A stretch of 64,000 nt of DNA from assembly GCF_001580535.1 (NCBI RefSeq), contig NZ_LHZA01000156.1, forward strand, positions 1 to 64,000. Reading direction: 5' to 3'. Numbering within the stretch: the stretch's first letter is position 1; each line of letters starts with the position of its first letter. Under the pieces are notes generated by a model. That model had not been told where the DNA came from. It did not search any database and saw nothing but the letters and a program-made list of their open reading frames with translations. The position numbers and the translations under genes are program-made. Below, piece by piece: positions 7,592 to 26,327 of this stretch. The DNA is from Acetobacter cerevisiae. Lineage in GTDB: Bacteria; Pseudomonadota; Alphaproteobacteria; Acetobacterales; Acetobacteraceae.

Positions 7592-8001
<410 letters not shown>

Positions 8002-8201
8002 CATTTTCTGTTTCTGCCTCATTTCATTACGCCGGGCACGGTGTTCTGCCGATATCTGCGCATATATGCAGAACATTTGAAGAACATGACGTGGCAAAGT
8101 TTTGTTGGTCTCTATTTTACCATTGCTTTCACGGCATCAAACAGTTCTGCGCAACTACTTCATAAATGGCGGTTTTCTGCTGTTTTTTCTGCCTTTTTAA
8201 T

Positions 8202-8230
8202 TTGCGTCCCATAAAATCCCATGCTATCCC
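8202..8230 (+). promoter_or_regulatory. Candidate dcw-cluster promoter (Pmra)
   Basis: TTGCGT at 8202-8207 and TATCCC at 8225-8230 with a 17-bp spacer. The three MraZ-type repeats lie across it from -35 to -10. Transcription would begin near 8237, giving a leader of about 80 nt to the GTG of mraZ. Confidence 0.45.
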
Positions 8231-8231
8231 A
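8207..8231 (-). promoter_or_regulatory. MraZ operator: three TGGGA direct repeats
   Basis: TCCCA occurs at 8207-8211, 8217-8221 and 8227-8231, that is TGGGA three times on the minus strand with exact 5-bp gaps. TGGGN-N5-TGGGN-N5-TGGGN is the site bound by MraZ upstream of mraZ in E. coli (established knowledge). Here it coincides with the predicted promoter, consistent with autorepression of the whole dcw operon. Confidence 0.82.
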
Positions 8232-8317
8232 CATTACACCATGAAAGTGGTGGAGGCGGCTTCGTTCCCCGCTGTTCTGCGAACGGAAAGGCCTGAATCA
8301 GAAGGACATCGTCTTAC

Positions 8318-8800
8318 GTGAGTGTGTTTCTCGGCACGCATGAGAATCGGTTTGACGCGAAAGGTCGCGTTTCGATTCCTGCCGGTTTCCGCACTGTTCT
8401 GAAGGCGCAGCATACGGAAGGCGATTCACTGGTGATCCTGCGACCATCCCATACAATGCCCTGCATTGAAGCGTGGCCTGCCGGAGCCTTCTCACGCCTG
8501 ACCCAGCCGCTGGACCGTCTGGATATGTTTTCTGATGAGCATGATGACCTTGCCGCCGCCCTGTACGCGGATGCCTACCCGCTTGATCCGGACCGTGAAG
8601 GTCGCATCATTATTCCCGATTTTTTGCGTGAGCATGCAGGCATTACGGAAAGCACGACCGTTGCCTTTATGGGCGTAGGCCGCACCTTTCAGATATGGGA
8701 ACCCGAGGCCGCCCGCCAGCGCCGCGCCGAAGCCCGTCAGCGGTCCCGCCGCATCAGCATCCCCGCTGCGCGTGATGGACAGGAAGGAGGGTCTGCATGA
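8318..8800 (+). CDS. mraZ: Transcriptional regulator MraZ
   Basis: A 160-residue MraZ, the DNA-binding regulator that opens dcw clusters. Two AbrB-like halves each carry the DxxxR motif: DAKGR in [16 protein letters not shown], and DREGR in [15 protein letters not shown]. It starts at GTG 8318 with agaagga upstream; no ATG fits the family N-terminus [11 protein letters not shown] basic, Arg-rich tail closes the protein. Its stop overlaps rsmH as ATGA. The repeats at 8207-8231 are its likely operator. Confidence 0.95.
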
Positions 8801-9828
8801 ATGCCCTGACCACCTCCTCCTCTCTGCATCCGACCTCCGGCGCACCTGCTCCGGGCCATGTGCCCGTGATGCTGGCCGAAGTGCTGGAAAGCCTGAAACC
8901 TGCTGATGGCGATGCCATTCTCGACTGCACCTTTGGCGGCGGCGGTTATACATCCGCCATTCTGAAAAGTGCTGACTGTGCCGTATGGGCTATCGACCGG
9001 GACCCGGACGCCATTGCACGCGGACAGGCCATGGCCGCCAGCTTTACCAACGCAGAAGGCCAGTCCCGCCTGCATATGCTGCATGGTGGGTTTGGCAGCA
9101 TGACGGACCTGACAGAAGCAGCCGATGCCCCGGCTTTTGACGGCATTGTGCTGGATCTGGGCGTGTCCTCCTTCCAGCTGGATGAAGCCGAGCGTGGTTT
9201 TTCCTTCCGCATGGATGGGCCGCTGGATATGCGCATGGCAAAAAGTGGCCCCTCTGCTGCGGATATCGTGAATAAGGCGCCGGAAAGCGAACTGGCTGAC
9301 ATTTTCCACTTTTATGGTGAAGAGCGCCACGCCCGCCGCGTGGCCCGCGCCATTGTGGCCGACCGTGTGGAAACGCCGTTTGAAACAACCGCGCAACTGG
9401 CCGGGCTGATCCGCCGCGTGGTGCCGTCTGACCGTTCAGGCATTGATGCCGCAACCCGTTCCTTTCAGGGCCTGCGCATTGCCGTTAATGACGAGCTTGG
9501 CGAGATTGAGCGCGGCCTGACGCAGGCGCTTGATCTGCTGGCCCCCGGTGGCCGTCTGGTTGTGGTCTCCTTCCATTCTCTGGAAGACCGCATCGCCAAA
9601 CGGGTGATGGGTGCTGCAACTGGCAAAACCACAAGTTTTTCACGCTATGACCCGCGTGCAGCATTGACGAAGGGGGATGAAGCCGCCTTTATCGCGCTCA
9701 CCGGGAGGCCCCTCCGTCCAGGTGACGCTGAATGCGCCGCCAACCCGCGTGCCCGCAGTGCCCGCCTCCGCGCTGTGGAAAAACGCTCGACCGATGTTTC
9801 CTCCTTCGGCAAAGGATTGATCCCATGA
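8797..9828 (+). CDS. rsmH: 16S rRNA (cytosine-1402-N4)-methyltransferase
   Basis: A 343-residue RsmH (MraW), which N4-methylates C1402 of 16S rRNA using SAM. HVPVM is at 21-25 and the SAM site [16 protein letters not shown] starts at 41, followed by [15 protein letters not shown] and the C-terminal VSFHSLEDR motif. Its Shine-Dalgarno aaggaggg lies inside the end of mraZ, and both ends overlap neighbours by four bases. It is the standard second dcw gene. Confidence 0.97.
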
Positions 9829-10832
9829 TCCCCCGGCCCTTTACCTGCTGCTGCGCTGTCCTGGCCATTGCCTCGGGATTTTTCCTTTATACGAAGAAGC
9901 ATCAGACCACGCTTCTGGATCAGCAGATTTCCAAAATCGTGTCTGATACAGAGCGTGTGCGCTCCCAGACAGCCATGCTGCGTACGGAATGGGCCCTGGA
10001 AAACCAGCCGGAACGGCTAACCCGTCTGGCGGAACATCATCTGGTGGGCCTCCACACCATGGACCCCGCACAGTTTGTTCGTATGGCGGATCTTTCTGCC
10101 CGCCTGCCCGCACCGACAGTCAAGATCCCGGCTGAAGATCCGCGCGCTGGCATGACAGCCGCAACACTGGCCTCTGCTCAGCCGACCGCGCCTGTGGCGG
10201 CAGCGCATCCGGCTGTTGTCGCAGTTGCCGATGCCAAGCTGGCACGCCCTGCTCCGCATCATGACCGTAGTGTGGAAGGCGACGAAGCTCAGACACCTCG
10301 CGCTGCTATGACCGTTGCAGAAGAAACACCGGCACGCACGGCTCCGGTTATCCGTCCTGTTGCGCATCATGACCGCGCACCGCGTCCGGCTCTGGATGAT
10401 GCGGACGATGCTGCGGTCCGCACGGCACAGCTCACCGCGCCCGCTCCGGCAGCCCGGCCTGTGGCTCCGCGCCGCGCTGCAACGCAGCTGGCGGATGCCG
10501 CTCGCGTCAACCCGCCTGTAACCCGCACGCCTGTCACTGTCGCCAGTGCCGCAGATGCACCGCAGCCTGTACGCCACGCGCAGACTGCTCCGGTCCCAAC
10601 CCGCGTTGCGGCTGTCACCCCCAAACCCAGCGTGACGGACAGCGACAGCGATTCTCAGGTCCGGCATCCGCTGCCTGTCACGGTGGCAAGCTGGCATGCA
10701 ACCCGGCAGCATCGGGCTGCAACGCCCTCCGCAGGCTATGTTGAAGCACGGGCAACGTCCTCTTACAGCAGTGGCTCTTTGCTGAGCCACAGCAGTGATG
10801 CGTTGCCAGCCCCGGTCCCGATGACCAACTAA
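9825..10832 (+). CDS. ftsL: FtsL-like divisome protein with long Ala/Pro-rich tail
   Basis: Position between rsmH and ftsI, an N-terminal membrane segment at about 8-22 and a following coiled coil ([30 protein letters not shown]) identify FtsL, which bridges FtsQ/FtsB to FtsI/FtsW in the periplasm. Family proteins are usually near 100-130 residues; this one has 335. Residues from about 96 on are low-complexity Ala/Pro/Thr/Arg sequence with repeated HHDR, probably disordered and periplasmic. ATG 9825 overlaps the rsmH stop; the upstream open frame is rsmH shadow. Confidence 0.85.
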
Positions 10833-10864
10833 TTTTCCAGACGATAAGGTGACTTCAACCCGAT

Positions 10865-12901
10865 ATGGCCGTTCCGCCGCACGATTATGATACCCCACCC
10901 CCCGTGACGCGCACTGTGCGTGTTACGGGTGAGGATCTTCGTGCGCGTGCCCATCGGGACCAGATGCATGTCAGATTGCTGGGGGTTGCAGGCGGATTTT
11001 GCCTGCTTTTTGCTGTTGTTGCCGTCAAACTGTCCATCGCGACAGTTCTGCACCCCATGGCACCGGAAAAGCGGCAAATTGCCTCTCAGGTTCCGGAAAT
11101 TCCCAAAATCGACCCGAAAGGCAGTCTGGCCGGAGACTTCTCTCTCCCGCAGGTGCATCGGGCATCCATTGTGGACCGCAATGGTCAGACGCTCGCGCTG
11201 TCTTTGCCGGTTGCGCAGGTGTACGCCAACCCGCAGGAACTGATTGATCCGCAGGACGTCACCAAAAAACTGAAAACCGTCCTGAAAGATCTGGACGAGG
11301 AAGAGACAACCCGCAGGCTCTCCCTGCCCAAACAGTTTGTGTATATCGCCCGTAATATTACGCCCCAGCAGGAACTGGCCATTAACAGCATGGGCATTCC
11401 GGGGATCTATTTTGAGGCCGGTGAACGCCGCCACTATCCGCTGGGCCACATGGCCGCGCAGATTATGGGCACCGTGGATATTGATGACCACGGCGTTGCC
11501 GGCGTTGAGCGTTATTTTGACAAGCGCCTGATGAGCGACCATCGCCCACTGCGGCTTTCACTGGACGTACGCGTTCAGTCCGTGGTGCGGGATGAACTCG
11601 CCAATGCCATGAGCACCTTCCAGGCCATTGGGGCCTGCGCCATTGTGATGGATGTGCGCACGGGTGAAATCATCGCCATGGTCAGCCTGCCTGATTATGA
11701 CGTGAACGAGTTTTCGCACGCCACGAATGATGCCCGTTTTAACCGCGCCGTCACCGGCCTGTATGAACCTGGCTCAACCTTCAAGCTGCAAACGGCTGCC
11801 ATGGGGCTGGAGACCGGCACCATTCACATCTGGGATCGTTTTTCCTCCACGCCGATCCATATTGGTCGCTTCACCATTTCGGATATGAAGAACGACCATT
11901 TCGCACCGTGGATGACCCTGCCGGAAGTGATGGCGTTTTCCTCCAACCCGGCAGCCGCTCATATCGCGCTGGATGTAGGTGGCACGCGGCAGGCGCAATG
12001 GTTCCGCGATATGGGCTTTTTTGCCCCCGTGCCGATTGAACTACCAGAAGCCGCCCGTCCGCTGGTGCCGCATCAGTGGGGCATTTCCACCACCATGACG
12101 GTCGGGTTCGGGCACGGTATGGCCGAACCACCGCTGGCCATTGTGCGCGGCACGGCGGCCACGGTGAATGGCGGCATTCTTGTCACCCCTACCCTCTTGG
12201 AAAAGGAAGAAGGTCCTGCCCCCACGCAGGAAGCTGCGCTTTCTCAGGGGGTACAGAACGCCGCACTGGAACAGGCGGAAGCTGACACCGGCATGGATCA
12301 AACCACCGTCGGGAGTGACGGTCTGGCTGTGCCGCAGGGCCAGCGGGTTATTTCTGAAAAGAATTCTGCTCTCCTGCGCCGCCTGCTGCGTCTGGACGTC
12401 ACCGGCGGCACGGGCCGTACGGCAGAATCACCCGGCTATTTTGTCGGTGGGAAAACCGGCACGGCAGAAAAAATCGGTCCGCATGGCGGCTACCTGAAAC
12501 ACGTCAACATCTCGGCCTTTACCGGTATTTTCCCGATGAACGCGCCGCGCTACGCCGTATATGTCATGCTGGACAGCCCCAAGCCTACACCGCAGACCCA
12601 TGGCTGGACCACGGCTGGCTGGAACGCGGCCCCGACCGTTTCCAAAATTGTCTCGCGCATTGGGCCAATGCTGCAAATCTTCCCCGATACGGCACACGCA
12701 GCCCAGATTGACGCCAGCATGGCGCTGCCTATGCACCCGGCGGTGCCGCGTGGCGTGCGCCCACTTGGCCCGGGTAATGACCCCGGAGACCCGCGCAAAG
12801 CCGAAGCTGAACACCGCGCTGCCAAGGCTGCGGAACAAAAAGAACGCGCAGCCCAGAAAGCTGCTCTGAAAAAACAGGCTCAGGAGGTGATGGACGAATG
12901 A
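10865..12901 (+). CDS. ftsI: Septal peptidoglycan transpeptidase (PBP3)
   Basis: A 678-residue class B penicillin-binding protein that cross-links septal peptidoglycan with FtsW. One membrane anchor lies at about 38-58, the dimerisation domain follows, then the transpeptidase with active-site STFK (Ser304-Lys307), SSN (359-361) and KTG (530-532). A Glu/Gln-rich insert at about 446-490 sits between TPTLL and GQRVIS, where relatives are short. A highly charged Ala/Lys/Glu tail (about 636-678) follows the enzyme domain. It starts 32 bp after ftsL, one of the few gaps in the cluster. Confidence 0.96.
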   Translation: MAVPPHDYDTPPPVTRTVRVTGEDLRARAHRDQMHVRLLGVAGGFCLLFAVVAVKLSIATVLHPMAPEKRQIASQVPEIPKIDPKGSLAGDFSLPQVHRASIVDRNGQTLALSLPVAQVYANPQELIDPQDVTKKLKTVLKDLDEEETTRRLSLPKQFVYIARNITPQQELAINSMGIPGIYFEAGERRHYPLGHMAAQIMGTVDIDDHGVAGVERYFDKRLMSDHRPLRLSLDVRVQSVVRDELANAMSTFQAIGACAIVMDVRTGEIIAMVSLPDYDVNEFSHATNDARFNRAVTGLYEPGSTFKLQTAAMGLETGTIHIWDRFSSTPIHIGRFTISDMKNDHFAPWMTLPEVMAFSSNPAAAHIALDVGGTRQAQWFRDMGFFAPVPIELPEAARPLVPHQWGISTTMTVGFGHGMAEPPLAIVRGTAATVNGGILVTPTLLEKEEGPAPTQEAALSQGVQNAALEQAEADTGMDQTTVGSDGLAVPQGQRVISEKNSALLRRLLRLDVTGGTGRTAESPGYFVGGKTGTAEKIGPHGGYLKHVNISAFTGIFPMNAPRYAVYVMLDSPKPTPQTHGWTTAGWNAAPTVSKIVSRIGPMLQIFPDTAHAAQIDASMALPMHPAVPRGVRPLGPGNDPGDPRKAEAEHRAAKAAEQKERAAQKAALKKQAQEVMDE

Positions 12902-14406
12902 CCACACGCCTTTCCACCCTTCTCAAGACGATGAGCCTTACGGCGACCGGAACGCAGCATGATCCGGTCATTACCGCCATCACGCCGGACAGCCGTGCCG
13001 TCAAACCCGGCACCCTGTTTGCCGCCCTGCCCGGCGTTAAGGTCGATGGGCGGGCTTTTATCTCGGCTGCTGTGCAGAATGGGGCTGCTGCTGTACTGGC
13101 ACCAACCGGTACGGTGTGGCCAGCGGATACGGCACCCTGTCCGCTGGTGCTGGCAGACAACCCGCGCCATGTTCTGGCTGTTCTGGCCACAGCACTAGCT
13201 GGGCGTCAGCCGGAGTGCCTCGTGGCCATTACCGGCACCAACGGTAAAACCAGCACCACGGATTTCCTCCGCCAGATTTGGGCCTTGCAGGGGCTAAAAG
13301 CTGCTGGCGTGGGCACACTCGGTCTGACCGGTGTGAACGGTCTGGGCATTACCATGCCGTCGCTCACCACGCCGGACCCGGTGGCGCTGGCCAACGGTCT
13401 GGCAGCCCTTGCGCAGGCCGGGGTTAAGCATGTGGCGCTGGAAGCCTCCTCCCACGGGCTGGAACAGGGGCGGCTGGACGGCCTGCATCTGTCCGCTGCC
13501 GGGTTTACTAATCTGACGCGCGACCATTTGGACTATCACGGCACAGTGGACGCCTACCGCGAAGCCAAGCTGAAACTGTTTGAGACGGTGCTGCCCGAAG
13601 GTGGTCTGGCTGTTGCCAATGCGGACATGGATACCCAGACGCTGGCAGAGCTTCGCGCAATTGCCACGAGGCGCAAGCTTACTCTGCGGCTAACCGGCGA
13701 GAACGGCACCACGCTGCGCCTGCTGCGCCACACACCTTTACCCTCCGGGCAGGAGCTGGAACTGGACGTTTGCGGCCAGCGGCAAATTGTTACGCTTGGC
13801 CTGCCGGGACGTTTCCAGACTGACAATGCCTTGCTGGCCGCTGCTCTTGCTGCGCCGGATGAAGCCTCTCTGCCCGCCATTATCGCTCTGCTGCCGCAGT
13901 TGCAGGGTGTGCGTGGACGTATGGAGCGCGCAGTGGTTTTGCCAAATGGGGCCAGTGCCTATGTGGATTATGCCCACACGCCGGATGCCCTTGCACGCCT
14001 GCTGGTCTCTCTGCGGCCGCACGCTCGGGGCAAATTGATTGTGGTGTTTGGCGCGGGCGGTGACCGTGACCGGGGCAAACGCCCGCTCATGGCGCAGGAA
14101 GCCGCACGCGGGGCAGATATCGCCATTATTACGGATGATAATCCCCGCACGGAAAACGCCGCCGCCATCCGCGCGGAAGTCCGCACCGGCGCGCCGGACG
14201 CACTGGAAATTGGCGGACGCAGACAGGCCATTGCTGAGGCTCTGACCATGCTCGGCCCGGATGATGTGCTGGTTGTGGCTGGCAAAGGGCATGAGCAAGG
14301 GCAGATTATTGGCACGGAAGTCCATCCGTTTGATGATGCCGCCGTGCTGCGCGAACTGGCCGGTGTTCAGACCAGCGACACCTCAAAACAGGCAAACCCG
14401 GCATGA
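12898..14406 (+). CDS. murE: UDP-MurNAc-tripeptide synthetase (meso-DAP adding)
   Basis: A 502-residue Mur ligase that adds the third stem-peptide residue to UDP-MurNAc-L-Ala-D-Glu. The ATP site GTNGKT is at 113-118. The DNPR motif at 414-417 (TDDNPRTENA) is the recognised marker of meso-diaminopimelate specificity, expected for a Gram-negative. It overlaps ftsI and murF by ATGA at both ends. Confidence 0.97.
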   Translation: MTTRLSTLLKTMSLTATGTQHDPVITAITPDSRAVKPGTLFAALPGVKVDGRAFISAAVQNGAAAVLAPTGTVWPADTAPCPLVLADNPRHVLAVLATALAGRQPECLVAITGTNGKTSTTDFLRQIWALQGLKAAGVGTLGLTGVNGLGITMPSLTTPDPVALANGLAALAQAGVKHVALEASSHGLEQGRLDGLHLSAAGFTNLTRDHLDYHGTVDAYREAKLKLFETVLPEGGLAVANADMDTQTLAELRAIATRRKLTLRLTGENGTTLRLLRHTPLPSGQELELDVCGQRQIVTLGLPGRFQTDNALLAAALAAPDEASLPAIIALLPQLQGVRGRMERAVVLPNGASAYVDYAHTPDALARLLVSLRPHARGKLIVVFGAGGDRDRGKRPLMAQEAARGADIAIITDDNPRTENAAAIRAEVRTGAPDALEIGGRRQAIAEALTMLGPDDVLVVAGKGHEQGQIIGTEVHPFDDAAVLRELAGVQTSDTSKQANPA

Positions 14407-15788
14407 CGGCTCTCTGGACACGTGACGAACTGGAAGCTGCCACCGGTGGCAGGTTTGCAGGCCCTTGCACGCCGGTTGTGACTGGCATTTCCATTGACAC
14501 CCGGACGCTGGCTCCCGGTGATCTGTTTGTCGCTCTGAAAGGCGACAACAGCGACGGGCATGCGCATATCGCCATCGCTCTGGATAAAGGGGCAGCCGCG
14601 GTGCTGGTGCATGACACCGCCGGATGCACGGACCCACGCCTGCTCGTGGTGACGGACACCATGGCTGGCCTTCAGGCTCTGGCCCGTGCCGCACGGGCGC
14701 GCTTTACCGGCAAGATGGTGGCAGTTACCGGCAGTGTTGGCAAAACCACCACCAAGGAAATGCTGCGGCTGTGCCTCGGAGCCCTCGGCCCTACCCATGC
14801 GGCAGAAGCCTCCTACAATAACCACTGGGGTGTTCCACTCACACTGGCGCGGATGCCGCGTAATGCAGCGTTTTGCATCAGTGAAATTGGCATGAACCAT
14901 CCGGGGGAAATCCTGCCGCTGGCCAGCATGGTGCGCCCGGATATTGCCGTCATCACCACCATTGGCTCTGCCCATCTGGGCTATATGGGCAGCGTGGACG
15001 CCATAGCGCAGGAAAAGGCGGAGCTGATTACCGCCCTGCCAACCGGCGGCGTGGCCATTGTGCCAGATGATGCTCTGGGCCAATCCTTTTTTGCCGCAGC
15101 GGCCCGGCAGGCCAATACCACCCTGTGGCATACCGGCCTGAAGCGCGACAGCTTTGTGCATCTGTCCGGCCTGAAGGCCTTGGAAGGCGGTAGCCAGTTT
15201 ACCGCCCATGCCGGCAGCCGCTCTGTGCCGGTTACGCTCCACGCACCGGGCACGCATCTGGCCCGCAACGCGCTGACGGCGCTGGCCGTGTGTGCGGCTC
15301 TGGGTGGGGATCTGAGCAAAGCGGCTCAGGCTCTCACCAGTTTCCGCCCCGGCAAAGGGCGCGGTGCGCTAGCGCAGATTGCCGGCGGGGACGTGACCCT
15401 GCTGGATGAAAGCTATAATGCCTCCTCCGCCTCCATCCGTGCGGCGCTGGATGTGCTTCGTCATCTCCCGGCCACACGCCGCATTGCCGTTCTGGGCGAT
15501 ATGCGTGAACTGGGCGATTTTTCCCTCTCCGAGCATCAGGCGCTGGCTCAACCCACCGCCGACTGTGCCGACCTTGTTTTCTGTTGCGGACCCCACATGA
15601 AATCCCTTTTTGATGCCCTGCCCAAAACGGCGCAGGGTGCCTGGGCGCAAGACGCCGCCACTCTGGCTCCTCTGGTTTGCGCGGCTCTGCGCAAGGGGGA
15701 CGCCGTTCTGGTGAAAGGCAGTCTGGGGAGCCGCATGCGGGATGTGATTACGGCTCTGAACAGCCTGAGCGCCGTGGAGCCTGCCTGA
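14403..15788 (+). CDS. murF: UDP-MurNAc-tripeptide:D-Ala-D-Ala ligase
   Basis: A 461-residue MurF, which joins D-Ala-D-Ala to the tripeptide to complete the UDP-MurNAc pentapeptide in the cytoplasm. The P-loop TGSVGKTT is at 109-116; SYNNHWGVPL, EIGMNHPGEI and DESYNASSASIRAAL are family motifs. The D-Ala-D-Ala is made by ddl further along the same cluster. The start overlaps murE; the stop shares one base with the mraY start (TGATG). Confidence 0.97.
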   Translation: MTALWTRDELEAATGGRFAGPCTPVVTGISIDTRTLAPGDLFVALKGDNSDGHAHIAIALDKGAAAVLVHDTAGCTDPRLLVVTDTMAGLQALARAARARFTGKMVAVTGSVGKTTTKEMLRLCLGALGPTHAAEASYNNHWGVPLTLARMPRNAAFCISEIGMNHPGEILPLASMVRPDIAVITTIGSAHLGYMGSVDAIAQEKAELITALPTGGVAIVPDDALGQSFFAAAARQANTTLWHTGLKRDSFVHLSGLKALEGGSQFTAHAGSRSVPVTLHAPGTHLARNALTALAVCAALGGDLSKAAQALTSFRPGKGRGALAQIAGGDVTLLDESYNASSASIRAALDVLRHLPATRRIAVLGDMRELGDFSLSEHQALAQPTADCADLVFCCGPHMKSLFDALPKTAQGAWAQDAATLAPLVCAALRKGDAVLVKGSLGSRMRDVITALNSLSAVEPA

Positions 15789-16882
15789 TGTTGTATTTTC
15801 TGGTCTCTCACCCGCTGACAGACGCGCATATTCCGCTGCTCAATCTGCTCCGCTACATCACGTTCCGGGCCGGAGCAGCCTGCTTTACAGCACTGGCCAT
15901 CAGCCTGATGCTGGGCCGCCCGCTGATTGCCATGCTGCGGCGTATTCAGCGCGGCGGTCAGCCGATCCGCGCCCTCGGCCCGGAGCGGCACCTGCTGGAA
16001 AAAACCGGCACCCCCACCATGGGCGGTGTGCTGATCCTGATTGCCCTGTTCGGCTCAACCCTGCTGTGGGGTGACCTTGAAAACGGCTTTGTGTGGGCCG
16101 TCATGCTCACCACACTGGCGTTTGGCGCTGTGGGCTTTGCGGATGATTATCGCAAGCTGGCCCGCCGCAATACAGATGGCGTCTCCAAACGGATGCGGCT
16201 GGGGTGTGAGTTTTCGGCGTCGCTGCTGTGCGGCTGGTTCCTGCAAAGCCTGATGCCGGATGACCTGACCAACCAGCTCGCCTTCCCCTTTGTGAAAGAC
16301 CTGCTGCTGCCGCTGGGGTTTGCCTACCCCATCTTCGCCATGATCACCATTACCGGCTTCGGCAACGCCGTAAACTTTACGGACGGGCTGGATGGTCTGG
16401 CCATTGTGCCCGTGGTCATTGCCGCTCTGGTGTTTGCCATCCTGTCCTACATTGTCGGCAACCATGTGTTTGCGGATTATCTGCAGGTCCATGCTGTGCC
16501 GGGGACCGGGGAACTGGCGGTTTTCTGCGCTGCACTCGTGGGGGCTGGCCTCGGCTTCCTGTGGTTTAACGCCCCTCCGGCTTCCGTCTTCATGGGCGAT
16601 ACCGGCTCTCTTTCTCTGGGTGGTGCGCTGGGTGCTCTGGCTGTGGCCATCAAGCACGAGCTGGTCCTGTGCATTGTTGGCGGCCTGTTTGTGGTGGAAA
16701 CGCTCTCCGTCGTTATTCAGGTGTTCTGGTACAAGCGCACCGGGCGGCGTGTGTTCCTGATGGCCCCGATCCATCATCATTTTGAAAAGAAGGGCTGGGC
16801 CGAGCCTAAAATTGTCATCCGGTTCTGGATTGTTTCCGTCATTCTGGGGATGTGTGGTCTGGCCACGCTGAAATTGAGATGA
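15788..16882 (+). CDS. mraY: Phospho-MurNAc-pentapeptide transferase
   Basis: A 364-residue integral membrane enzyme that moves phospho-MurNAc-pentapeptide to undecaprenyl phosphate, making lipid I. About ten membrane helices alternate with the cytoplasmic motifs FADDYRKL, NFTDGLDGL and the histidine-rich PIHHHFE. ATG 15788 overlaps the murF stop as TGATG and gives the usual family length; upstream open sequence belongs to murF in another frame. Confidence 0.97.
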   Translation: MLYFLVSHPLTDAHIPLLNLLRYITFRAGAACFTALAISLMLGRPLIAMLRRIQRGGQPIRALGPERHLLEKTGTPTMGGVLILIALFGSTLLWGDLENGFVWAVMLTTLAFGAVGFADDYRKLARRNTDGVSKRMRLGCEFSASLLCGWFLQSLMPDDLTNQLAFPFVKDLLLPLGFAYPIFAMITITGFGNAVNFTDGLDGLAIVPVVIAALVFAILSYIVGNHVFADYLQVHAVPGTGELAVFCAALVGAGLGFLWFNAPPASVFMGDTGSLSLGGALGALAVAIKHELVLCIVGGLFVVETLSVVIQVFWYKRTGRRVFLMAPIHHHFEKKGWAEPKIVIRFWIVSVILGMCGLATLKLR

Positions 16883-18294
16883 GCAATTTTCCCGCCACTC
16901 TTTTTACCGGCCAGCATTTTGCTGTGCTGGGGCTGGGCCGGAACGGTCTGCCCGCCGTGTGTGCCCTCGCACAAAGCGGGGCTACAGTTCAGGCGTGGGA
17001 TGATGGCGAGGCTGCCCGTGCAGCGCTCGCCAAAGCTGTAACAGCCCTCCCGCAAAACGCTGCCGCCCGGATTACCTGCGCGCCGATCAAGAGCCTGACT
17101 GGCGCCGATGGTCTCGTCCTCTCCCCCGGTATTCCGCATATGCTACCCAAACCGCATCCCGTCGCCATCATGGCGCAGGAGGCTGGCGTGCCGATCCTGT
17201 CCGATGCGGAACTGCTTTACCGCGCGGTCCGCAAGGCAGGCAGCAAGGCGCGGTTTGCGGGCATTACCGGCACCAATGGCAAATCGACTACCACCACGCT
17301 TCTGGCCCATATTCTGGCTGAAGCCGGTGTGCCGGTTGCCGCTGGCGGGAACCTTGGCCCCGCCGCGTTAGCACTCCCTCTCCTGCCGGATAATGGTGTG
17401 TATGTGCTGGAAATGTCCTCCTACATGCTGGAACGGCTGGACACGCTGCATTTTGACGTGGCCTGCCTGCTGAACCTCACCCCGGACCATCTGGACCGCC
17501 ACGCAGGCATGGAAGGCTATGCCAGCGCCAAAACCCGCGTCTTTACCCACCAGACCGCGCAGGATCTGGCAGTGATTGGCGTGGATGATGACTACTGCCG
17601 TGACATTGCCAAAACCCTTCAGGCTGGCCCCGCGCAGTGCGTGACTATTTCCGGCGCTAACCCGGACTGTGATGTCTATGGGCAGGCCAACGCCATCTGG
17701 CAGGCAGGCGCGTGCCTTGCGCACCTTGGCCCCTCTCTGCCTGGCAGCCATAACGCGGAAAACGCTGCCACCGCCTGTGCCATGGCGCGCTTTCTGGGCG
17801 TGGCGGACGCCGCACTCGCTGCGGCTGTTCTCTCCTTCCCCGGCCTGCCGCACCGCCAGAAACTCGTGGCAGAGCAGGACGGCGTGGCCTTTATTGATGA
17901 CAGTAAAGCCACCAATGCCGATGCCTCCGCGCGTGCCCTGGGCTGTTATGATCGGCTGATCTGGATTGCTGGCGGAATGGCCAAAGAGGGTGGCATTGCC
18001 TCGCTCACGCCCTATTTCCCACGCATTGTCCATGCGTTCCTCATCGGGCGGGATGCCGCACAACTGGCGGAAACGCTGGCAGCGCACGGCGTGGCGTTCA
18101 CACTTTCCGGCACGCTGGAAAACGCTGTACCCGCAGCCTATGACGCAGCACGGAGCACGGGTACGCCCGTCGTGCTGCTGTCCCCCGCCTGCGCCAGTTT
18201 TGACCAGTTTTCCGGGTTTGAAGCCCGTGGGCTGCGCTTTCTGGAACTGGCCCGCGCGGTGACGGAACAGCCGCAAACAGGAAAGGCCGACTGA
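16879..18294 (+). CDS. murD: UDP-MurNAc-L-Ala:D-Glu ligase
   Basis: A 471-residue Mur ligase that adds D-glutamate to UDP-MurNAc-L-Ala. The N-terminal domain has AVLGLGRNGLPA; the ATP site GTNGKS is at 131-136; LNLTPDHLDRH and DDSKATNADA follow. The start overlaps the mraY stop by ATGA and the stop is shared with ftsW by TGATG. Confidence 0.97.
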   Translation: MSNFPATLFTGQHFAVLGLGRNGLPAVCALAQSGATVQAWDDGEAARAALAKAVTALPQNAAARITCAPIKSLTGADGLVLSPGIPHMLPKPHPVAIMAQEAGVPILSDAELLYRAVRKAGSKARFAGITGTNGKSTTTTLLAHILAEAGVPVAAGGNLGPAALALPLLPDNGVYVLEMSSYMLERLDTLHFDVACLLNLTPDHLDRHAGMEGYASAKTRVFTHQTAQDLAVIGVDDDYCRDIAKTLQAGPAQCVTISGANPDCDVYGQANAIWQAGACLAHLGPSLPGSHNAENAATACAMARFLGVADAALAAAVLSFPGLPHRQKLVAEQDGVAFIDDSKATNADASARALGCYDRLIWIAGGMAKEGGIASLTPYFPRIVHAFLIGRDAAQLAETLAAHGVAFTLSGTLENAVPAAYDAARSTGTPVVLLSPACASFDQFSGFEARGLRFLELARAVTEQPQTGKAD

Positions 18295-19457
18295 TGGCAG
18301 GCTCCCGCATTGATGACTCCCGGTTTGGGCGCTGGTGGCGCAATGTGGACCGGACGACGCTTATCTGCGCGTTCATCCTGATCGGCTTTGGCTATATCCT
18401 GATGCTGGCCGCAAGCCCGGCGGTTGCGGTGCGTATTGGCGCATCCCGCAACATGTTCATTTTCAAACAGGTGATGTTCCTTACAATCGCGGGTCTGATT
18501 GTGGTGAGTGTCTCCATGCTCTCCCGCAAGACAGTGCTCAGGCTTTCCCTTGTGGGGGGCGCGCTGATGCTGGGGGCAACGGCCCTCACGCTGGTGCATG
18601 GGATTGAAATCAAAGGCGCGCGGCGGTGGATTGCCCTGCCGCTCATGTCGCTCCAGCCCTCGGAATTCCTCAAGCCCTGCTTTGCCGTGGTGACCGGCTG
18701 GCTGCTCACGCAGCGCCGCGTTTCCCGCTATTTTCCGGGTATGCTGCTGGCCTTCGCGCTATTTGGCGTCATTCTGATGCTGCTGAAATCCCAGCCCGAT
18801 ATCGGGATGCTCACAGTCATCACCACAGTGTTCATGACCCAGCTTTTTGTGGACGGGCTGAACCTGATTCTGGTGGGGTTGGGCGTTGGCGTCATGATTG
18901 GCGCAGGCATTGCCGCCTTCTTCCTGTTCCCGCATGTGCGCTCCCGCGTGGAGCGCTTCCTGCATCCCAACGTGGGCGACCATTACCAGATTGATACAGC
19001 ACTCCGCGCCTTCGGCAATGGCGGCCTGACGGGCCGTGGCCCCGGTGAAGGCCGCGTGAAGGATCTGCTGCCCGATGCCCATGCGGACTTTGTGTTTGCT
19101 GTGGCCGGGGAAGAATATGGTCTGATTGTCTGCATGCTCATCATCTGCGTGTTCGGCGTGATTGTGGTGCGCACCCTGCTTCGGCTGATTCGGGAAGATG
19201 ACCCGTTCATCGTCATTTCCACCACCGGACTGGTGACGGGCTTTGGCTTGCAGGCCTTTGTAAATATGGCGTCCTCCTTGCATCTCATCCCCACCAAGGG
19301 CATGACGCTGCCTTTCATTTCCTATGGCGGCTCTTCCGCTATGTCCGTGGCATTGGCCGTGGGCATGGTGCTGGCTCTCACACGGCATCAGCCGGGTGAA
19401 CGGTTGCCACGCAGCGGAGGCTTCATGACCACTTTCAGACAATGGCGGCCCGTATGA
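18294..19457 (+). CDS. ftsW: Septal peptidoglycan glycosyltransferase (SEDS)
   Basis: A 387-residue SEDS-family polytopic membrane protein that polymerises septal glycan from lipid II as partner of FtsI. About ten membrane segments are visible, with the SEDS motifs ARRWIALPLMSLQPSEFLKP, LTGRGPGEGRVKDLLP and DAHADFVFAVAGEE. The cytoplasmic C-terminus is short and basic. It sits between murD and murG, as in most dcw clusters. Confidence 0.97.
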   Translation: MAGSRIDDSRFGRWWRNVDRTTLICAFILIGFGYILMLAASPAVAVRIGASRNMFIFKQVMFLTIAGLIVVSVSMLSRKTVLRLSLVGGALMLGATALTLVHGIEIKGARRWIALPLMSLQPSEFLKPCFAVVTGWLLTQRRVSRYFPGMLLAFALFGVILMLLKSQPDIGMLTVITTVFMTQLFVDGLNLILVGLGVGVMIGAGIAAFFLFPHVRSRVERFLHPNVGDHYQIDTALRAFGNGGLTGRGPGEGRVKDLLPDAHADFVFAVAGEEYGLIVCMLIICVFGVIVVRTLLRLIREDDPFIVISTTGLVTGFGLQAFVNMASSLHLIPTKGMTLPFISYGGSSAMSVALAVGMVLALTRHQPGERLPRSGGFMTTFRQWRPV

Positions 19458-20602
19458 CCCAACGCACTATCGTCATTGCCGCAGGCGGCACCGGCGGACA
19501 TTTCTTTCCGGCTGAAGCTCTGGCCGATGCTCTGGCTGAACGTGGCCACCGGCTGGTTTTGATGACCGATGCCCGCGCCGGTGCGCGCACGGCAGGCGTC
19601 TTCTCACGCGGGCCGCAATATGTGCTGCCGGGTGCGGGTGTCGCTGGCCGTGGCCCGATGCGTGCTTTCAAGGCAGGCCTCACCCTGCTGAGCAGCGCAT
19701 GGAAGGCCCGCTCCATTCTGCGCAGCGTCCAGCCAGACGCCGTAGTCGGGTTTGGCGGTTATCCCTCCGTGCCGCCCCTGCTTGGCGCGCGCCTGCTGGG
19801 CCGTAAACATCCGGCCCTGATTATTCATGAAGGCAATGCCGTTCTGGGCAAGGCCAACGCTGTGTTGTCCCGCTTTGCGGATGTCATTGCCACGTCTTTT
19901 CCCTCCGTCGCCAAACTGCCAATTGGTGCGCGCACGGCCTTTACCGGCATGCCGGTCCGCCCGACTATTGCCGCACTGGCGGGTAAAGGCTGGACCATGC
20001 CCGATCAGACCATCAACCTGCTGGTCTGGGGTGGCTCGCTGGGTGCCAGCGTGTTTGCAAAAGTGGTGCCCTCCGCCCTTGGCAAGCTGCCCGAAGAGCT
20101 GCGTGCCCGCCTGCACGTTACGCAGCAGGCTCGGAAAGATGATGTGGAAGCCACGCGCAAGGCCTATGCCGATATGGGCATTACTGCCCGCGTGGAACCG
20201 TTCCTGAATGATGTGCCTGCCCTGTTGCAGAGCGCGCATCTGGTGATTGGCCGGGCTGGTGGCTCCTCCGTTGCGGAGATTACCACCGCTGGCCGTCCCT
20301 CCATTCTGGTTCCCCTGCCCATTGCCGCGAGCGATGAGCAGACCGAAAACGCCCGCGCCATCACCACAGCGGGCGCCGGCTGGATGATCCGCCAGCCGGA
20401 CTTTACCGCCGCCACACTGGCTGACCGCCTGAATGACCTCCTTACGGCCCCGGAAGAGCTGGCGCGCGCAGCGGCCGCCGCAGCCTCACTCGCCCGCCCG
20501 GATGCCGCCACCCGCCTGGCCGATGTTGTAGAAGAATGCTTGCACCTTTCCCCCTCGCCCGCCTATCCGACACCTCCCAGCCAGACGGAGTTCAGCGCAT
20601 GA
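19454..20602 (+). CDS. murG: Lipid II synthase (UDP-GlcNAc transferase)
   Basis: A 382-residue MurG, a peripheral membrane GT-B enzyme that adds GlcNAc to lipid [11 protein letters not shown] is at 11-20, [12 protein letters not shown] and [11 protein letters not shown] follow, and the C-terminal donor-site motif is [12 protein letters not shown]. An in-frame ATG exists at 19442, but ATG 19454 forms the ATGA overlap with ftsW seen throughout this operon and begins at the family N-terminus. Confidence 0.97.
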
Positions 20603-22029
20603 GAGCCCTGCCCCTTTCCATCGGAACCATTCATTTTGTCGGGATTGGTGGCATCGGCATGTCCGGCATTGCCGAGGTGCTGTCCATGCTGGGCTATTCC
20701 GTGCAGGGGTCGGACATTGCTGAAAACGCCAATGTCAAACGGCTGCGCGCTGCGGGTATTCCCATCAGCATTGGTCACGCTGCGGAAAATCTGGGGGAAG
20801 CTCAGGTTGTCGTCATCTCCACGGCTGTCAGCCGGGACAACCCGGAAGTGGTCGCCGCCCGTAGCCGTCTGATCCCGGTGGTGCGGCGTGCGGAAATGCT
20901 GGCCGAATTGATGCGCCTGCGCTGGTCCGTCGCGGTTGGCGGCACGCACGGCAAAACCACCACCACCAGCCTGATTGCGGCTGTGCTGGAAGCCGCGCGG
21001 CTGGACCCCACCGTGATTAACGGCGGCATTATTGAGGCCTACGGCACCAACACCCGCATGGGCAAAGGCGACTGGATGGTCGCAGAAGCAGATGAGAGCG
21101 ATGGCTCCTTCCTGCGTCTGCCCTCCGTGATTTCCGTTGTGACCAACATGGACCCGGAACATCTGGACCACTGGGGTTCCGCCGAGGCCATGGAAGCAGC
21201 GTATGACCAGTTTGTCTCCAACGTGCCGTTCTATGGCTTTGCCGTACTGTGCATTGACCACCCCGCCGTGCAGCAGATGATCCCCCGCATGTCCGACCAC
21301 CGGATTGTCACCTACGGGTTCTCCCCGCAGGCTGACGTACGCGCTGAAAAGCTGATTACCGACAAGATGGGGGCGACGTTTGAAGTCACCCTGACCGACC
21401 GTTCCACCCGCCGCACCCGCAAGGCCGGACCGTTCCGTCTGCCCATGCTGGGTTCCCATAACGTGCAGAACGCGCTGGCTGCCATTGCCGTGGCGACCGA
21501 GATGGATATCAGCGATGATGTCATCCGCTCCGGTCTGGCCGCCTTCCGGGGGGTGAAGCGCCGCTTTACCCGCACCGGTGAATGCAACGGCGTGACGGTG
21601 ATTGATGATTACGGCCATCACCCCGTAGAAATTGCTGCCGTGCTGAAAGCTGCGCGACAGGCCGGAGCCAATAACGTAATTGCGGTCATGCAGCCGCACC
21701 GTTATTCGCGCCTGAAAATGCTGTTCCCTGATTTCTGCACCTGCATGAACGATGCCGATACCGTCATTGTTTCCGACGTCTATGCCGCAGGCGAACAGCC
21801 GGACCCGGAAATGAGCCGCGACAAGCTGATTGAAGGCCTGCGTGAACGCGGCCACCGCTCCGTGGTGCCGCTCTCCAGCCCCGACCATCTGGCGGAAATG
21901 ATCAACGCCATCGCCAAACCGGGTGATTATGTTGTCTGTCTGGGTGCAGGCACCATTACCAACTGGGCGCAGGCTCTGCCGGAACAGCTTAAGGCGCTGC
22001 ACGCAGCCGATGGCGGGCGCGCAGCATGA
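20599..22029 (+). CDS. murC: UDP-MurNAc:L-alanine ligase
   Basis: A 476-residue MurC that adds the first stem-peptide residue, L-Ala. The N-terminal motif [15 protein letters not shown] is followed by ATP site GTHGKT at 115-120, [11 protein letters not shown] and [13 protein letters not shown] 20599 overlaps the murG stop; the frame is open upstream but that sequence is the end of murG. Confidence 0.97.
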
Positions 22030-22973
22030 GCCTGTCTTCCGCCTCCATGACGGATCTGGTGCAGCAGGCATTTGCCCAAACCCGTGGCCGCCTGATCCCG
22101 CAGGCCCCGCTTGGCCCGCGCACATGGTTCCGCGTGGGCGGGGCAGCGGAATGGCTGTATCAGCCTGCGGATGCGGAAGATCTTGCGTCAGTCATGCAGC
22201 GCCTCTCTCCCGAACTCCCCGTCACCGCACTGGGCGCCTGCTCTAACGTGATTATCCGCGATGGCGGGCTGGATGGCATTGTCATCCGTCTGGCACGTGG
22301 GTTCTCCGACATCACGGTGGAAGAGGACGGACTGGTGGTCGGCAGCGCCTGTCTGGATGCCACCGTGGCCGAGTATGCCGCACAGGCCGGTCTGGCCGGT
22401 CTGGAATTTCTGGCGGGAATTCCCGGCTCCATCGGCGGGGCCGTGCGGATGAACGCCGGGGCCTATGGGTCCGACATCGCCACCGTGCTGGACTGGGCAG
22501 AAATCATCACGCGCGATGGCAGTCTGATACGGCTGGATGCTGGCGCACTGAAGTTTGGTTATCGGCGCTCCGGCCTGCCGGAAGGGGCTCTGGTTATCCG
22601 CGCCCGCCTGCGTGGCACGCCGGACAAACAGGCGGATATTTCCGCCCGCATTGCGGAAATCCGCGCAGCGCGTGAACTCTCCCAGCCAGTGCGGGCCAGA
22701 ACCGGCGGGTCCACCTTCCGCAACCCGGACCCGGATATTTCCCTCCATAAGGCCTGGAAACTGATTGATGCCGCTGGCTGCCGTGGTCTGAAGCGCGGGG
22801 ATGCGCAGGTGAGCGAGAAGCACTGCAACTTCCTGATCAATCTCGGTCAGGCCACCGCCGCCGACCTTGAAGGTCTGGGCGATGAGGTGCGGCATCGCGT
22901 CGCGCAGCAGTCTGGCGTTCAGCTGCATTGGGAAATCAAACGCATCGGCAAGGCAGAAGGATCCTCCGCATGA
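22026..22973 (+). CDS. murB: UDP-N-acetylenolpyruvoylglucosamine reductase
   Basis: A 315-residue FAD enzyme that reduces UDP-GlcNAc-enolpyruvate to UDP-MurNAc. The FAD domain shows [21 protein letters not shown] and [21 protein letters not shown]; the catalytic Ser lies in GGSTFRNP and the C-terminal motif is [11 protein letters not shown]. It overlaps murC and ddl by ATGA at both ends. murA is not in the window. Confidence 0.96.
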
Positions 22974-23911
22974 GCAACAGCAAACGGATTACCGTTCTGA
23001 TGGGCGGGATTTCTTCTGAACGTGAGGTTAGCCTCGCCTCCGGCAAAGGTGTCGTCGAAGCGCTGCGCAGCCTTGGCCATACCGTCAGCACGCTGGACCC
23101 CGGGGCCGATCTGGCGGCACTCGTCACCACACTGACCGAACAGAAGCCCGATGTGGTCTTCAACGCCCTGCACGGACGGTATGGCGAAGATGGCTGTATT
23201 CAGGGTGTGCTGAACTGGATTGGCGTGCCTTACACCCACTCCGGCGTGCGCGCTTCCGCCACAGCCATGGACAAGGCCGCAGCCCGCGCTGTCTTCCTTT
23301 CCGCCGGGCTGCCGGTGGCCGAAGGCAAGCTGGTTGCCATTGAGGATCTGGCTAAAGCTGACCCCCTGCCCACACCGTATGTGGTCAAACCGGTGAGCGA
23401 AGGTTCTTCCGTCGGGGTTTCTATTGTCCGGTCCGGCTCCAATACGCGGCAGGAAATTGTCGAAAACTGGCGCTATGGCCCGCATGCGCTGGTGGAAGCC
23501 TTTATTCCCGGCAAGGAAATTACGATTGGTGTGCTGGGGGACCGCGCCCTGACTGTGACAGACATCACCCCCGCGCCCGGCGGCGGCCATGATTTCTATG
23601 ATTATGACGCCAAATACACCAGCGGCGGCTCCAGCCATGTTCTGCCTGCGGCCATTGATGACGCCGTGAGCAAACAGGCCTGCGCAATTGCCGTTGCAGC
23701 GCATCAGGCGCTTGGCTGCTCCGGTGCCTCCCGCTCGGATTTCCGGCTGGATGATACCGGCCCCGGTCCGGCCCGGCTTGTGCTGCTGGAAGTCAACACC
23801 CAGCCGGGGATGACGGCCACCTCTTTGCTGCCGGAACAGGCCGCCTATTGCGGCATCAGCTATCCGGAACTGTGCGGCTGGCTGGTTGAGCAGGCAGCCT
23901 GTCCACAATGA
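22970..23911 (+). CDS. ddl: D-alanine--D-alanine ligase
   Basis: A 313-residue ATP-grasp ligase that makes D-Ala-D-Ala for MurF. The N-terminal motif reads VLMGGISSEREVSL; YVVKPVSEGSSVGV binds ATP and LEVNTQPGMTATSL carries metal and substrate residues. ATG 22970 overlaps the murB stop and matches the family N-terminus. Its stop overlaps ftsQ. Confidence 0.96.
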   Translation: MSNSKRITVLMGGISSEREVSLASGKGVVEALRSLGHTVSTLDPGADLAALVTTLTEQKPDVVFNALHGRYGEDGCIQGVLNWIGVPYTHSGVRASATAMDKAAARAVFLSAGLPVAEGKLVAIEDLAKADPLPTPYVVKPVSEGSSVGVSIVRSGSNTRQEIVENWRYGPHALVEAFIPGKEITIGVLGDRALTVTDITPAPGGGHDFYDYDAKYTSGGSSHVLPAAIDDAVSKQACAIAVAAHQALGCSGASRSDFRLDDTGPGPARLVLLEVNTQPGMTATSLLPEQAAYCGISYPELCGWLVEQAACPQ

Positions 23912-24810
23912 GAATCCCCTCTTCCCCTTCTGATCGTCCGTCACGCTTCGGGCTGTTTGCCCGACGGCAGAAGCGGCTGATCCGCCCCTTGCTTGGCGTG
24001 CTGTTTCTGGCGGCGCTGGGGGGAGGAGGCTACCTGTATCTCCAGCAACCCGGCGCGCAGGAACGTCTGGCCCCGCTGCGGGAGAAGGTTCTGAGCGCTG
24101 CCCCACTGCGCATCACCAAAATTCAGGTGCAGGGCGCGCAGCTCACCAGCGATTCCGCCATTCACAAAGCACTTGGCGTATCCGTCGGCGAGCCGGTGCT
24201 GAATTTCAGCGTCTCCGACGCACGGGACCGCCTGAACGCCCTGCCCTTTGTGGATCATGTCACTGTTGAGCGGCATCTTTCGGGCGAAATTGACGTCACT
24301 ATTACAGAGCGTCCGCCCTTTGCCGTCTGGCAGCATCAGGGGCACTTTGAACTCATCGACCGGCAGGGCAAACGCGTGCCGGATCAGGGCATGACCGGCA
24401 AGGATGCCGAAGCCTTTACCAAGCTACCTCTGGTAGTCGGTGATGGCGCGAATGACGCCGCCTCTGCCCTGATTGATGCGCTGACGCAGGAACCCTCCGT
24501 GCGCGAGCATGTCACGGCTGCCGTACGGGTCAGCGACCGCCGCTGGAACCTGACCTTGCGGGATGGTGCGACGGTCTTTCTGCCAGAAGGCGAGGAAGTT
24601 CCGGCCATTCACCGGCTGGCCAAGCTGGATGCCTCCACGCATCTGCTGGACCGGCCTGTGGTGCTGATTGATATGCGTCTGCCCGACCGTCTGACCATTC
24701 GGGAGCGCCCCCCGCAGCCCGCTCCGGCCCCCTCCGGCACAGATGCCGCACCGCCTCCATCACAGCCCGGCAGCACGTCCCCCGCTGGCCGGCAGGGAAG
24801 TCCTGCATGA
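23908..24810 (+). CDS. ftsQ: Cell division protein FtsQ
   Basis: A 300-residue bitopic divisome protein. A basic cytoplasmic N-terminus (FARRQKRLIR) precedes a membrane segment at about 26-46; a POTRA domain starts near LRITKIQVQGAQ and is followed by the FtsQ beta domain. It recruits FtsL/FtsB in the periplasm. The last 30 residues are Pro/Ser/Ala-rich and probably disordered. It overlaps ddl and ftsA by ATGA. Confidence 0.94.
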   Translation: MRIPSSPSDRPSRFGLFARRQKRLIRPLLGVLFLAALGGGGYLYLQQPGAQERLAPLREKVLSAAPLRITKIQVQGAQLTSDSAIHKALGVSVGEPVLNFSVSDARDRLNALPFVDHVTVERHLSGEIDVTITERPPFAVWQHQGHFELIDRQGKRVPDQGMTGKDAEAFTKLPLVVGDGANDAASALIDALTQEPSVREHVTAAVRVSDRRWNLTLRDGATVFLPEGEEVPAIHRLAKLDASTHLLDRPVVLIDMRLPDRLTIRERPPQPAPAPSGTDAAPPPSQPGSTSPAGRQGSPA

Positions 24811-26243: not shown

Positions 26244-26268
26244 TATACTTAGAGAAATATTGATAACT
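26240..26268 (+). promoter_or_regulatory. Candidate internal ftsZ promoter
   Basis: The 84-bp ftsA-ftsZ gap is one of the few in the cluster and is AT-rich. TTGATA at 26240-26245 and ATAACT at 26263-26268 are 17 bp apart. An extra ftsZ promoter would allow FtsZ to be made in excess over FtsA. Confidence 0.35.
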
Positions 26269-26327
26269 TCGCTCTAGCATCCATCTGAAGACTTCGTTAG
26301 TTTGCCGCAGCTGCCCGGGAGAGCCAC

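Follow-up and report, generated by a model that had tools for sequence, protein, structure and literature searches.

A probable MraZ operator lies inverted within the promoter of the division and wall gene cluster in most Alphaproteobacteria examined

Three TCCCA repeats upstream of mraZ in Acetobacter cerevisiae are very probably, judging from sequence comparison, a MraZ binding site that is conserved across Alphaproteobacteria. The window in which we studied them is a 64,000-nucleotide stretch of the genome (NCBI RefSeq assembly GCF_001580535.1, contig NZ_LHZA01000156.1, positions 1 to 64,000). We hold with confidence that the repeats form a MraZ operator at the promoter of the division and wall gene (dcw) cluster, where MraZ would repress its own gene and the genes behind it. 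MraZ heads such a cluster in many bacteria, and the array would be ordinary as a MraZ operator; what appears notable is that, across most of the class, it is inverted and fused with the promoter. If this reading is right, most Alphaproteobacteria carry a MraZ switch with an inverted operator inside the promoter. A literature search, mainly of titles and abstracts and of open papers, found no binding or expression study of an alphaproteobacterial MraZ and no report of this operator arrangement, on which a remark in Eraso 2014 is possible.

Results

TCCCA repeats overlap the predicted mraZ promoter

Direct inspection of the window placed the three repeats exactly where the original prediction had put them, overlying the promoter that it had read as TTGCGT, a 17-bp gap, and TATCCC (Table 1). 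The exact triple is found nowhere else in the window or in the 3,085,002-base (3.09-Mb) genome, where the next-best sites in a whole-genome scan carry two mismatches. When up to two mismatches were allowed, the triple matched the window twice, the second match being the same array offset by one repeat. Shuffled windows gave 0.20 such matches on average, and two of 100 shuffles likewise gave two. Thus, the array by itself is only moderately unlikely, and the case is carried by its conservation.

Table 1. Features of the mraZ promoter region and dcw cluster in the window
Feature	Coordinates	Strand	Basis
rnpB, RNase P RNA; upstream neighbor, outside the operator	7592..8005	+	RF00010, 322 bits
-35 box TTGCGT	8202..8207	+	Window sequence; 17 bp to TATCCC
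Repeat 1, TCCCA (minus-strand TGGGA)	8207..8211	-	CCCA 0.92-0.98 per base in 90 Acetobacteraceae loci; position outside the alignment core
Repeat 2, TCCCA, in the -35/-10 spacer	8217..8221	-	CCCAT 0.98-1.00 in 90 loci; figure inflated by alignment on the core
-10 box TATCCC, lacking T at -7; extended TG at 8222-8223	8225..8230	+	Window sequence and conservation
Repeat 3, TCCCA; TCCC forms the final four -10 bases	8227..8231	-	TATCCCA 0.93-1.00 in 90 loci; within the alignment core
Predicted transcription start, giving an 81-nt leader	8237	+	Inferred by counting 7 nt past the -10 box, as for the 171-nt S. meliloti leader
Weak in-phase fourth repeat CACCA, at the predicted start site	8237..8241	-	Window sequence
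mraZ, GTG start; D-x-K-G-R in first half, D-x-x-G-R in second half	8318..8800	+	NF001477 and PF02381
Remainder of dcw: rsmH, ftsL, ftsI, murE, murF, mraY, murD, ftsW, murG, murC, murB, ddl, ftsQ, ftsA, ftsZ	8797..27884	+	Profile matches and gene order; names ftsI, murF, murD and murC partly assigned from gene order
ftsZ	26328..27884	+	

The gene behind the repeats encodes a recognizable MraZ, which scores 220 bits against NF001477 (cut-off, 162), matches PF02381 over two stretches, and carries a D-x-x-G-R loop in each half (D13-R17 and D92-R96). Solved MraZ chains are on record as 1n0e, 9sx6, 9qlg, and 9qlr. The dcw order from mraZ to ftsZ is intact in the window; its genes overlap or lie at most 32 bases apart as far as ftsA, and an 84-base gap precedes ftsZ.

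A generic sigma-70 scan of the window called no promoter at the repeats; the scan requires the last T of the -10 box, which TATCCC lacks. The -7 T is likewise reported missing from more than 60% of the sigma-70 promoters analyzed in four species of Alphaproteobacteria (PMC8407463).

The array and its 10-bp pitch are conserved across the class

Of 200 Acetobacteraceae genomes, 183 proved to have mraZ in a protein search; from these we took 90 loci (30 selected by program, 60 by hand). The rest of the class was represented by 107 loci, consisting of 93 of the 94 non-family genomes with mraZ (G346, where a contig ends, was omitted) and 14 new ones. Class and family labels of the compared genomes were assigned through named neighbors, and the counts below are not independent, as the compared sequences are related.

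The original prediction had staked the operator on conservation of the 10-bp repeats across Acetobacteraceae, and the alignment bore it out. Three exact CCCA repeats at 10-bp pitch were present within 350 nt upstream of mraZ at 80 of the 90 family loci and at 68 of the 107 other class loci. Arrays matching at least 11 of the 12 bases were found at 86/90 and 90/107 loci, leaving four and 17 loci, respectively, below that level. Shuffled sequences never contained an exact array (0/900 for the family and 0/1,070 for the other class loci; 0/1,970 in total) and reached at least 11/12 in 1/900 and 7/1,070 cases. The pitch was specific: exact CCCA arrays spaced 10 bp apart occurred at 148 of 197 loci, and none of the 197 had one at any pitch of 6-9 or 11-15 bp. 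At least four exact in-phase CCCA repeats were found at 45/90 Acetobacteraceae and 41/107 other class loci.

To score conservation per base, we aligned the loci on CCCATG.TATCCCA, a choice that by itself makes this core score high (0.93-1.00 in the family, N excluded). Outside the core, the CCCA of repeat 1 was conserved in the family at the level given in Table 1 and the fourth-position CCCA at 0.66-0.87 per base; the five bases preceding repeat 2 reached only 0.44-0.58. Conservation also extends between repeats 2 and 3, where the consensus TGNTA is consistent with an extended -10 box.

Array presence follows mraZ presence, with exceptions

PF02381 matched in 96 of 114 class genomes. The exact core, CCCATGNTATCCCA, was present in 56 of these 96 and in one of the 18 without a match (Fisher p 4e-5, relatedness ignored). 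In one of the 56, G323, mraZ is present and the exact core sits elsewhere, inside an unrelated frame. The single genome among the 18 is G270, an assembly of 390 contigs whose core is not near any mraZ that we could see. A second set comprised 23 genomes that lack a PF02381 match, 12 shared with the 18; none contains the exact core, and all have rsmH. Within the genus, a TCCC[AG] triple with at most one mismatch was found somewhere in the genome in 47 of 49 genomes; the only two without it, G235 and G236, also have no PF02381 match.

Examining the 900 nt before rsmH in 22 genomes without PF02381, we found three arrays of at least 11/12, and only two of these, in G366 and G289, are in the CCCA orientation. 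Just upstream of rsmH, G289 has a CCCA array (11/12) together with a diverged MraZ-like frame containing both D-x-x-G-R loops. The third genome, G264, likewise has a diverged MraZ-like frame with both loops just upstream of rsmH, accompanied by a TGGG array (11/12) in the orientation found in E. coli. The PF02381 profile missed both frames and thus undercounts mraZ. In G366, a perfect CCCA array (12/12) lies 236 nt before rsmH, where TTGACG is present, CCCATTGACGCCCAGCTATTCCCATG is followed by a TATTTT -10 sequence, and no MraZ-like frame was seen. We guess that this array may be what is left of an operator after loss of mraZ, its -10 repeat having since decayed. The link between the array and mraZ is therefore strong, yet not clean.

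In G255, G323, and G349, additional exact cores away from mraZ fall within open frames and appear to be chance occurrences. A single mraZ in G267 is preceded by two exact CCCATGNTATCCCA cores separated by 250 bp; the more distant core lies between the neighboring 358-aa frame and the operator. In G272, CCCA repeats 9-10 bp apart (locus L461, 1236-1278) precede a divergent frame that by eye looks NUDIX-like, about 0.55 kb away from mraZ; they are possibly a second MraZ target in that lineage.

A mapped start supports TATCCC as the -10 box

TTGAC lies 17 or 18 bp upstream of TATCCC at 66 of 90 family loci; in the rest of the class, this holds for 60 of the 101 loci whose core is recognizable. 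Among 31 core-bearing loci of the genus (two genomes counted twice), the -35 sequence is TTTGCG, as in the window, at 16, of the TTTGACG type at nine, and something else at six.

Counting 7 nt from TATCCC, we predicted an mraZ leader of 171 nt in Sinorhizobium meliloti 4H41. Transcript data from S. meliloti place the mraZ start at 170 nt (PMC5089854), and this agreement supports TATCCC as the -10 box. Since the S. meliloti authors called the role of this start site in mraZ expression speculative (PMC5089854) and a secondary mraZ start has been reported in at least one agrobacterium (PMC10469942), the predicted promoter may not be the sole mraZ promoter in every species. For R. sphaeroides, where the mraZ start is reported at 268 nt (PMC5089854), the comparison was with four loci of a family that we guess to be Rhodobacteraceae; their weak cores (10-11/13) predict leaders of 260, 266, 302, and 306 nt, and an Rfam search of four loci of this family found no known leader RNA. 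In Caulobacter crescentus, the leader is reported to be at most 70 nt (PMC5089854).

We also scanned named genomes with the pattern TTGACN{1,3}CCCAN6CCCATGNTATCCCA, which matched at least 120 stretches. Among the 120 matches listed, mraZ follows in 115, and the other five stretches end within 210 bases. The nearest to the window among these pattern-selected loci is that of Acetobacter sicerae, at 70% identity. All but one of 80 titles among the matches listed are Alphaproteobacteria or unresolved Proteobacteria. The exception is a metagenome-assembled genome titled Nitrosomonas sp. (L339), which has the alphaproteobacterial promoter pattern with mraZ behind it; this contig is probably misbinned. 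If the operator reading is right, this short pattern would mark a likely dcw promoter and start site in genomes that have no start-site maps.

The array is reversed relative to E. coli and most arrays of other classes

The operator of the E. coli mraZ promoter is the one that Eraso 2014 reportedly described. It shares with the window three TGGG repeats at 10-bp pitch upstream of an mraZ that heads the dcw cluster. In E. coli, however, TGGG is on the coding strand (12/12) and starts 8 bp after TAAACT, whereas in the window the array is on the opposite strand and lies over and between the -35 and -10 boxes. The original prediction had extended the E. coli control to this lineage; the operator itself stands, and the arrangement does not, as orientation, position, and half-site all differ.

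These differences hold for most of the class loci examined. There, TGGG runs against transcription, and the array takes up the -35/-10 spacer and provides most of the -10 box. Coding-strand TGGG of at least 11/12 was found at none of the 90 Acetobacteraceae loci and at one of the 107 other class loci, with G264 as a further exception. In 32 loci from other classes of the phylum (29 program-selected and three hand-selected, from 52), TGGG reached 11/12 in 16 and CCCA in none. Twenty-six other-class arrays, E. coli included, scored at least 10/12; a -10 box was recognized at 20 of them, and the array starts 9 bp past it in nine of these 20, the remaining distances being spread from 2 to 19 bp. 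In most Alphaproteobacteria examined, the putative operator is reversed compared to Gamma- and Betaproteobacteria-type genomes and is positioned farther upstream. There is also a difference in the half-site: in the window's class, A precedes TGGG at 0.68-0.75 and follows it at 0.70-0.71, whereas in other classes G precedes TGG at 0.90.

Sites described elsewhere show parts of this arrangement. In Burkholderia cenocepacia, MraZ shifts a promoter fragment containing GTG repeats at 10-bp pitch (PMC7761207). This site, PmraBc, resembles the window in its pitch (7-nt repeats with 3-nt spacers); unlike the window array, it is described as being located past the -10 box, where it overlaps the start site (PMC7761207). 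The Mollicutes site AAAGTG[T/G] also consists of direct repeats in the mraZ promoter, but with a GTG half-site where the window has ATGGGA (Fisunov 2016, cited in PMC8475190), and in Mycoplasma genitalium these repeats are reported to be the sole MraZ site (PMC8475190). We also found a coding-strand GTGG array (10/12) in Listeria and a weak array (8/12) in Legionella adelaidensis. In Nonomuraea gerenzanensis, repeats extend by eye from TTGACG through the spacer to TATGGT and so lie within the promoter, as in the window; in contrast to the window, they read GTGG on the coding strand, and the array reaches only 10/12. The Nonomuraea upstream DNA also contains an additional, more distant CCCA stretch at 10/12. 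Since the Nonomuraea array also spans the -35/-10 spacer, location within the promoter is not unique to Alphaproteobacteria; it is orientation that sets them apart.

Discussion

Repression by promoter occlusion is the most likely outcome

The conservation of the repeats, their 10-bp pitch, their co-occurrence with mraZ, and the S. meliloti start all support the proposal, made in the original prediction, of a MraZ operator over the dcw promoter. MraZ would bind at least three TGGGA half-sites, spaced by one helical turn along the same face of the DNA; in Mollicutes, the protein is reported to form a toroidal octamer (quoted in PMC7761207). Because the repeats occupy the spacer and repeat 3 makes up most of the -10 box, MraZ and sigma-70 RNA polymerase would be mutually exclusive at this DNA. 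Occlusion of the promoter would then lead to autorepression of mraZ and to repression of the downstream division and wall genes. Binding, competition with polymerase, autoregulation, repression, and a reach as far as ftsZ are what we infer from these sequence patterns, and we consider repression of the entire mraZ-ftsZ unit through blocking of RNA polymerase the most likely outcome. MraZ repression has been reported in E. coli and M. genitalium (PMC8475190).

MraZ might instead bind here and chiefly activate, or its effect might end before ftsZ. Overexpression of MraZ in Mycoplasma gallisepticum was reportedly accompanied by raised FtsZ (PMC8475190), and repression in E. coli was reported for the first 11 genes, mraZ to murC (PMC7761207). 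Set against these reports, a site across the -35 to -10 region predicts occlusion, and loss of MraZ is said to have raised the downstream genes in M. genitalium (PMC8475190). We regard activation, or an effect of shorter reach, as unlikely.

A second possibility is that the CCCAT repeats are core-promoter sequence recognized by a sigma factor and RNA polymerase and are not read by MraZ. In its favor, the -35 and -10 boxes each share bases with a repeat, TGNTAT is a motif of the extended -10 kind, and in G366, where no mraZ was found, an exact CCCA triple and TTGACG persist. These requirements do not account for the CCCA that is also conserved between the boxes and, at the level given above for the fourth position, 10 bp further downstream. 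Nor do they account for its rarity before rsmH in genomes without PF02381, where an array of at least 11/12 occurs in only two of 22, one of which (G289) has a MraZ-like frame. G264, G366, and the Nonomuraea array raise the chances of this explanation slightly; even so, we find it very unlikely.

The array could also belong to another cell-cycle or envelope regulator of the CtrA or NtrX type, and co-regulation with such a protein is possible as well. NtrX is reported to bind upstream of mraZ in R. sphaeroides (PMC7240162), and a CtrA motif is listed for S. meliloti mraZ (PMC3616915). However, a search of the 3.5-kb locus for GCAn9TGC, the sequence proposed for NtrX, gave one match, within the mraZ coding region, against an expectation of 2.56 for the locus, and the presence of the array follows the presence of mraZ. 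Ownership by a regulator of this kind is highly improbable. Chance repetition, which two of 100 window shuffles had equaled at two mismatches, is refuted by the conservation and the 10-bp pitch.

A proposed origin of the inverted operator

Under the reading of the array as a MraZ operator, we tentatively propose that early in Alphaproteobacteria the operator was inverted, moved about 30 bp upstream, and became fused with the core promoter. A relaxed need for T at -7 would have allowed TATCCC, and the GTGG half-site would have become ATGGGA alongside a change to a basic residue in the protein. Our belief in this history falls somewhat short of even, reduced by G264, a member of the same class with an array in the E. 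coli orientation, by G366, and by the Nonomuraea spacer array.

The basic residue emerged from comparison of MraZ proteins (60 family rows, including some genomes twice, 105 rows from the rest of the class, and 33 others). The first loop of these proteins is near-invariant at D, K, and R, and the second at D, G, and R. Two positions ahead of the first D-x-K-G-R loop, R or K stands in 0.92-0.95 of proteins from the window's class; in the others this position is N, S, or T in 0.93. Our guess is that this R/K residue may read the changed base of the half-site. If the operator is as proposed, the locus would make it possible to test, base by base, how a repressor and a sigma factor use the same DNA and how an operator can be reversed while its protein is kept.

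Similar arrays away from mraZ

Four TCCC[ACGT] repeats at 10-bp pitch also occur at ten places that are not at mraZ. One is in the window's own genome (L091; G000:C77, 6087-6125), and nine (L122-L130) are in seven genomes of the genus. A gene for an S24-type phage repressor lies near six of the ten (L091, L122, L125, L126, L128, and L129), and these arrays look like a separate mobile-element site. We set aside the possibility that MraZ has a larger regulon in the window's genome, as the exact triple is unique and the C77 array, four TCCC[AG] repeats, falls in the set associated with S24 repressors. In L132, from position 2179, and also in L131, TCCC[AG]-type repeats lie by what appears by eye to be a tRNA 3′ end, adjacent to an integrase with an arm-DNA-binding domain; these repeats are probably integrase arm sites.
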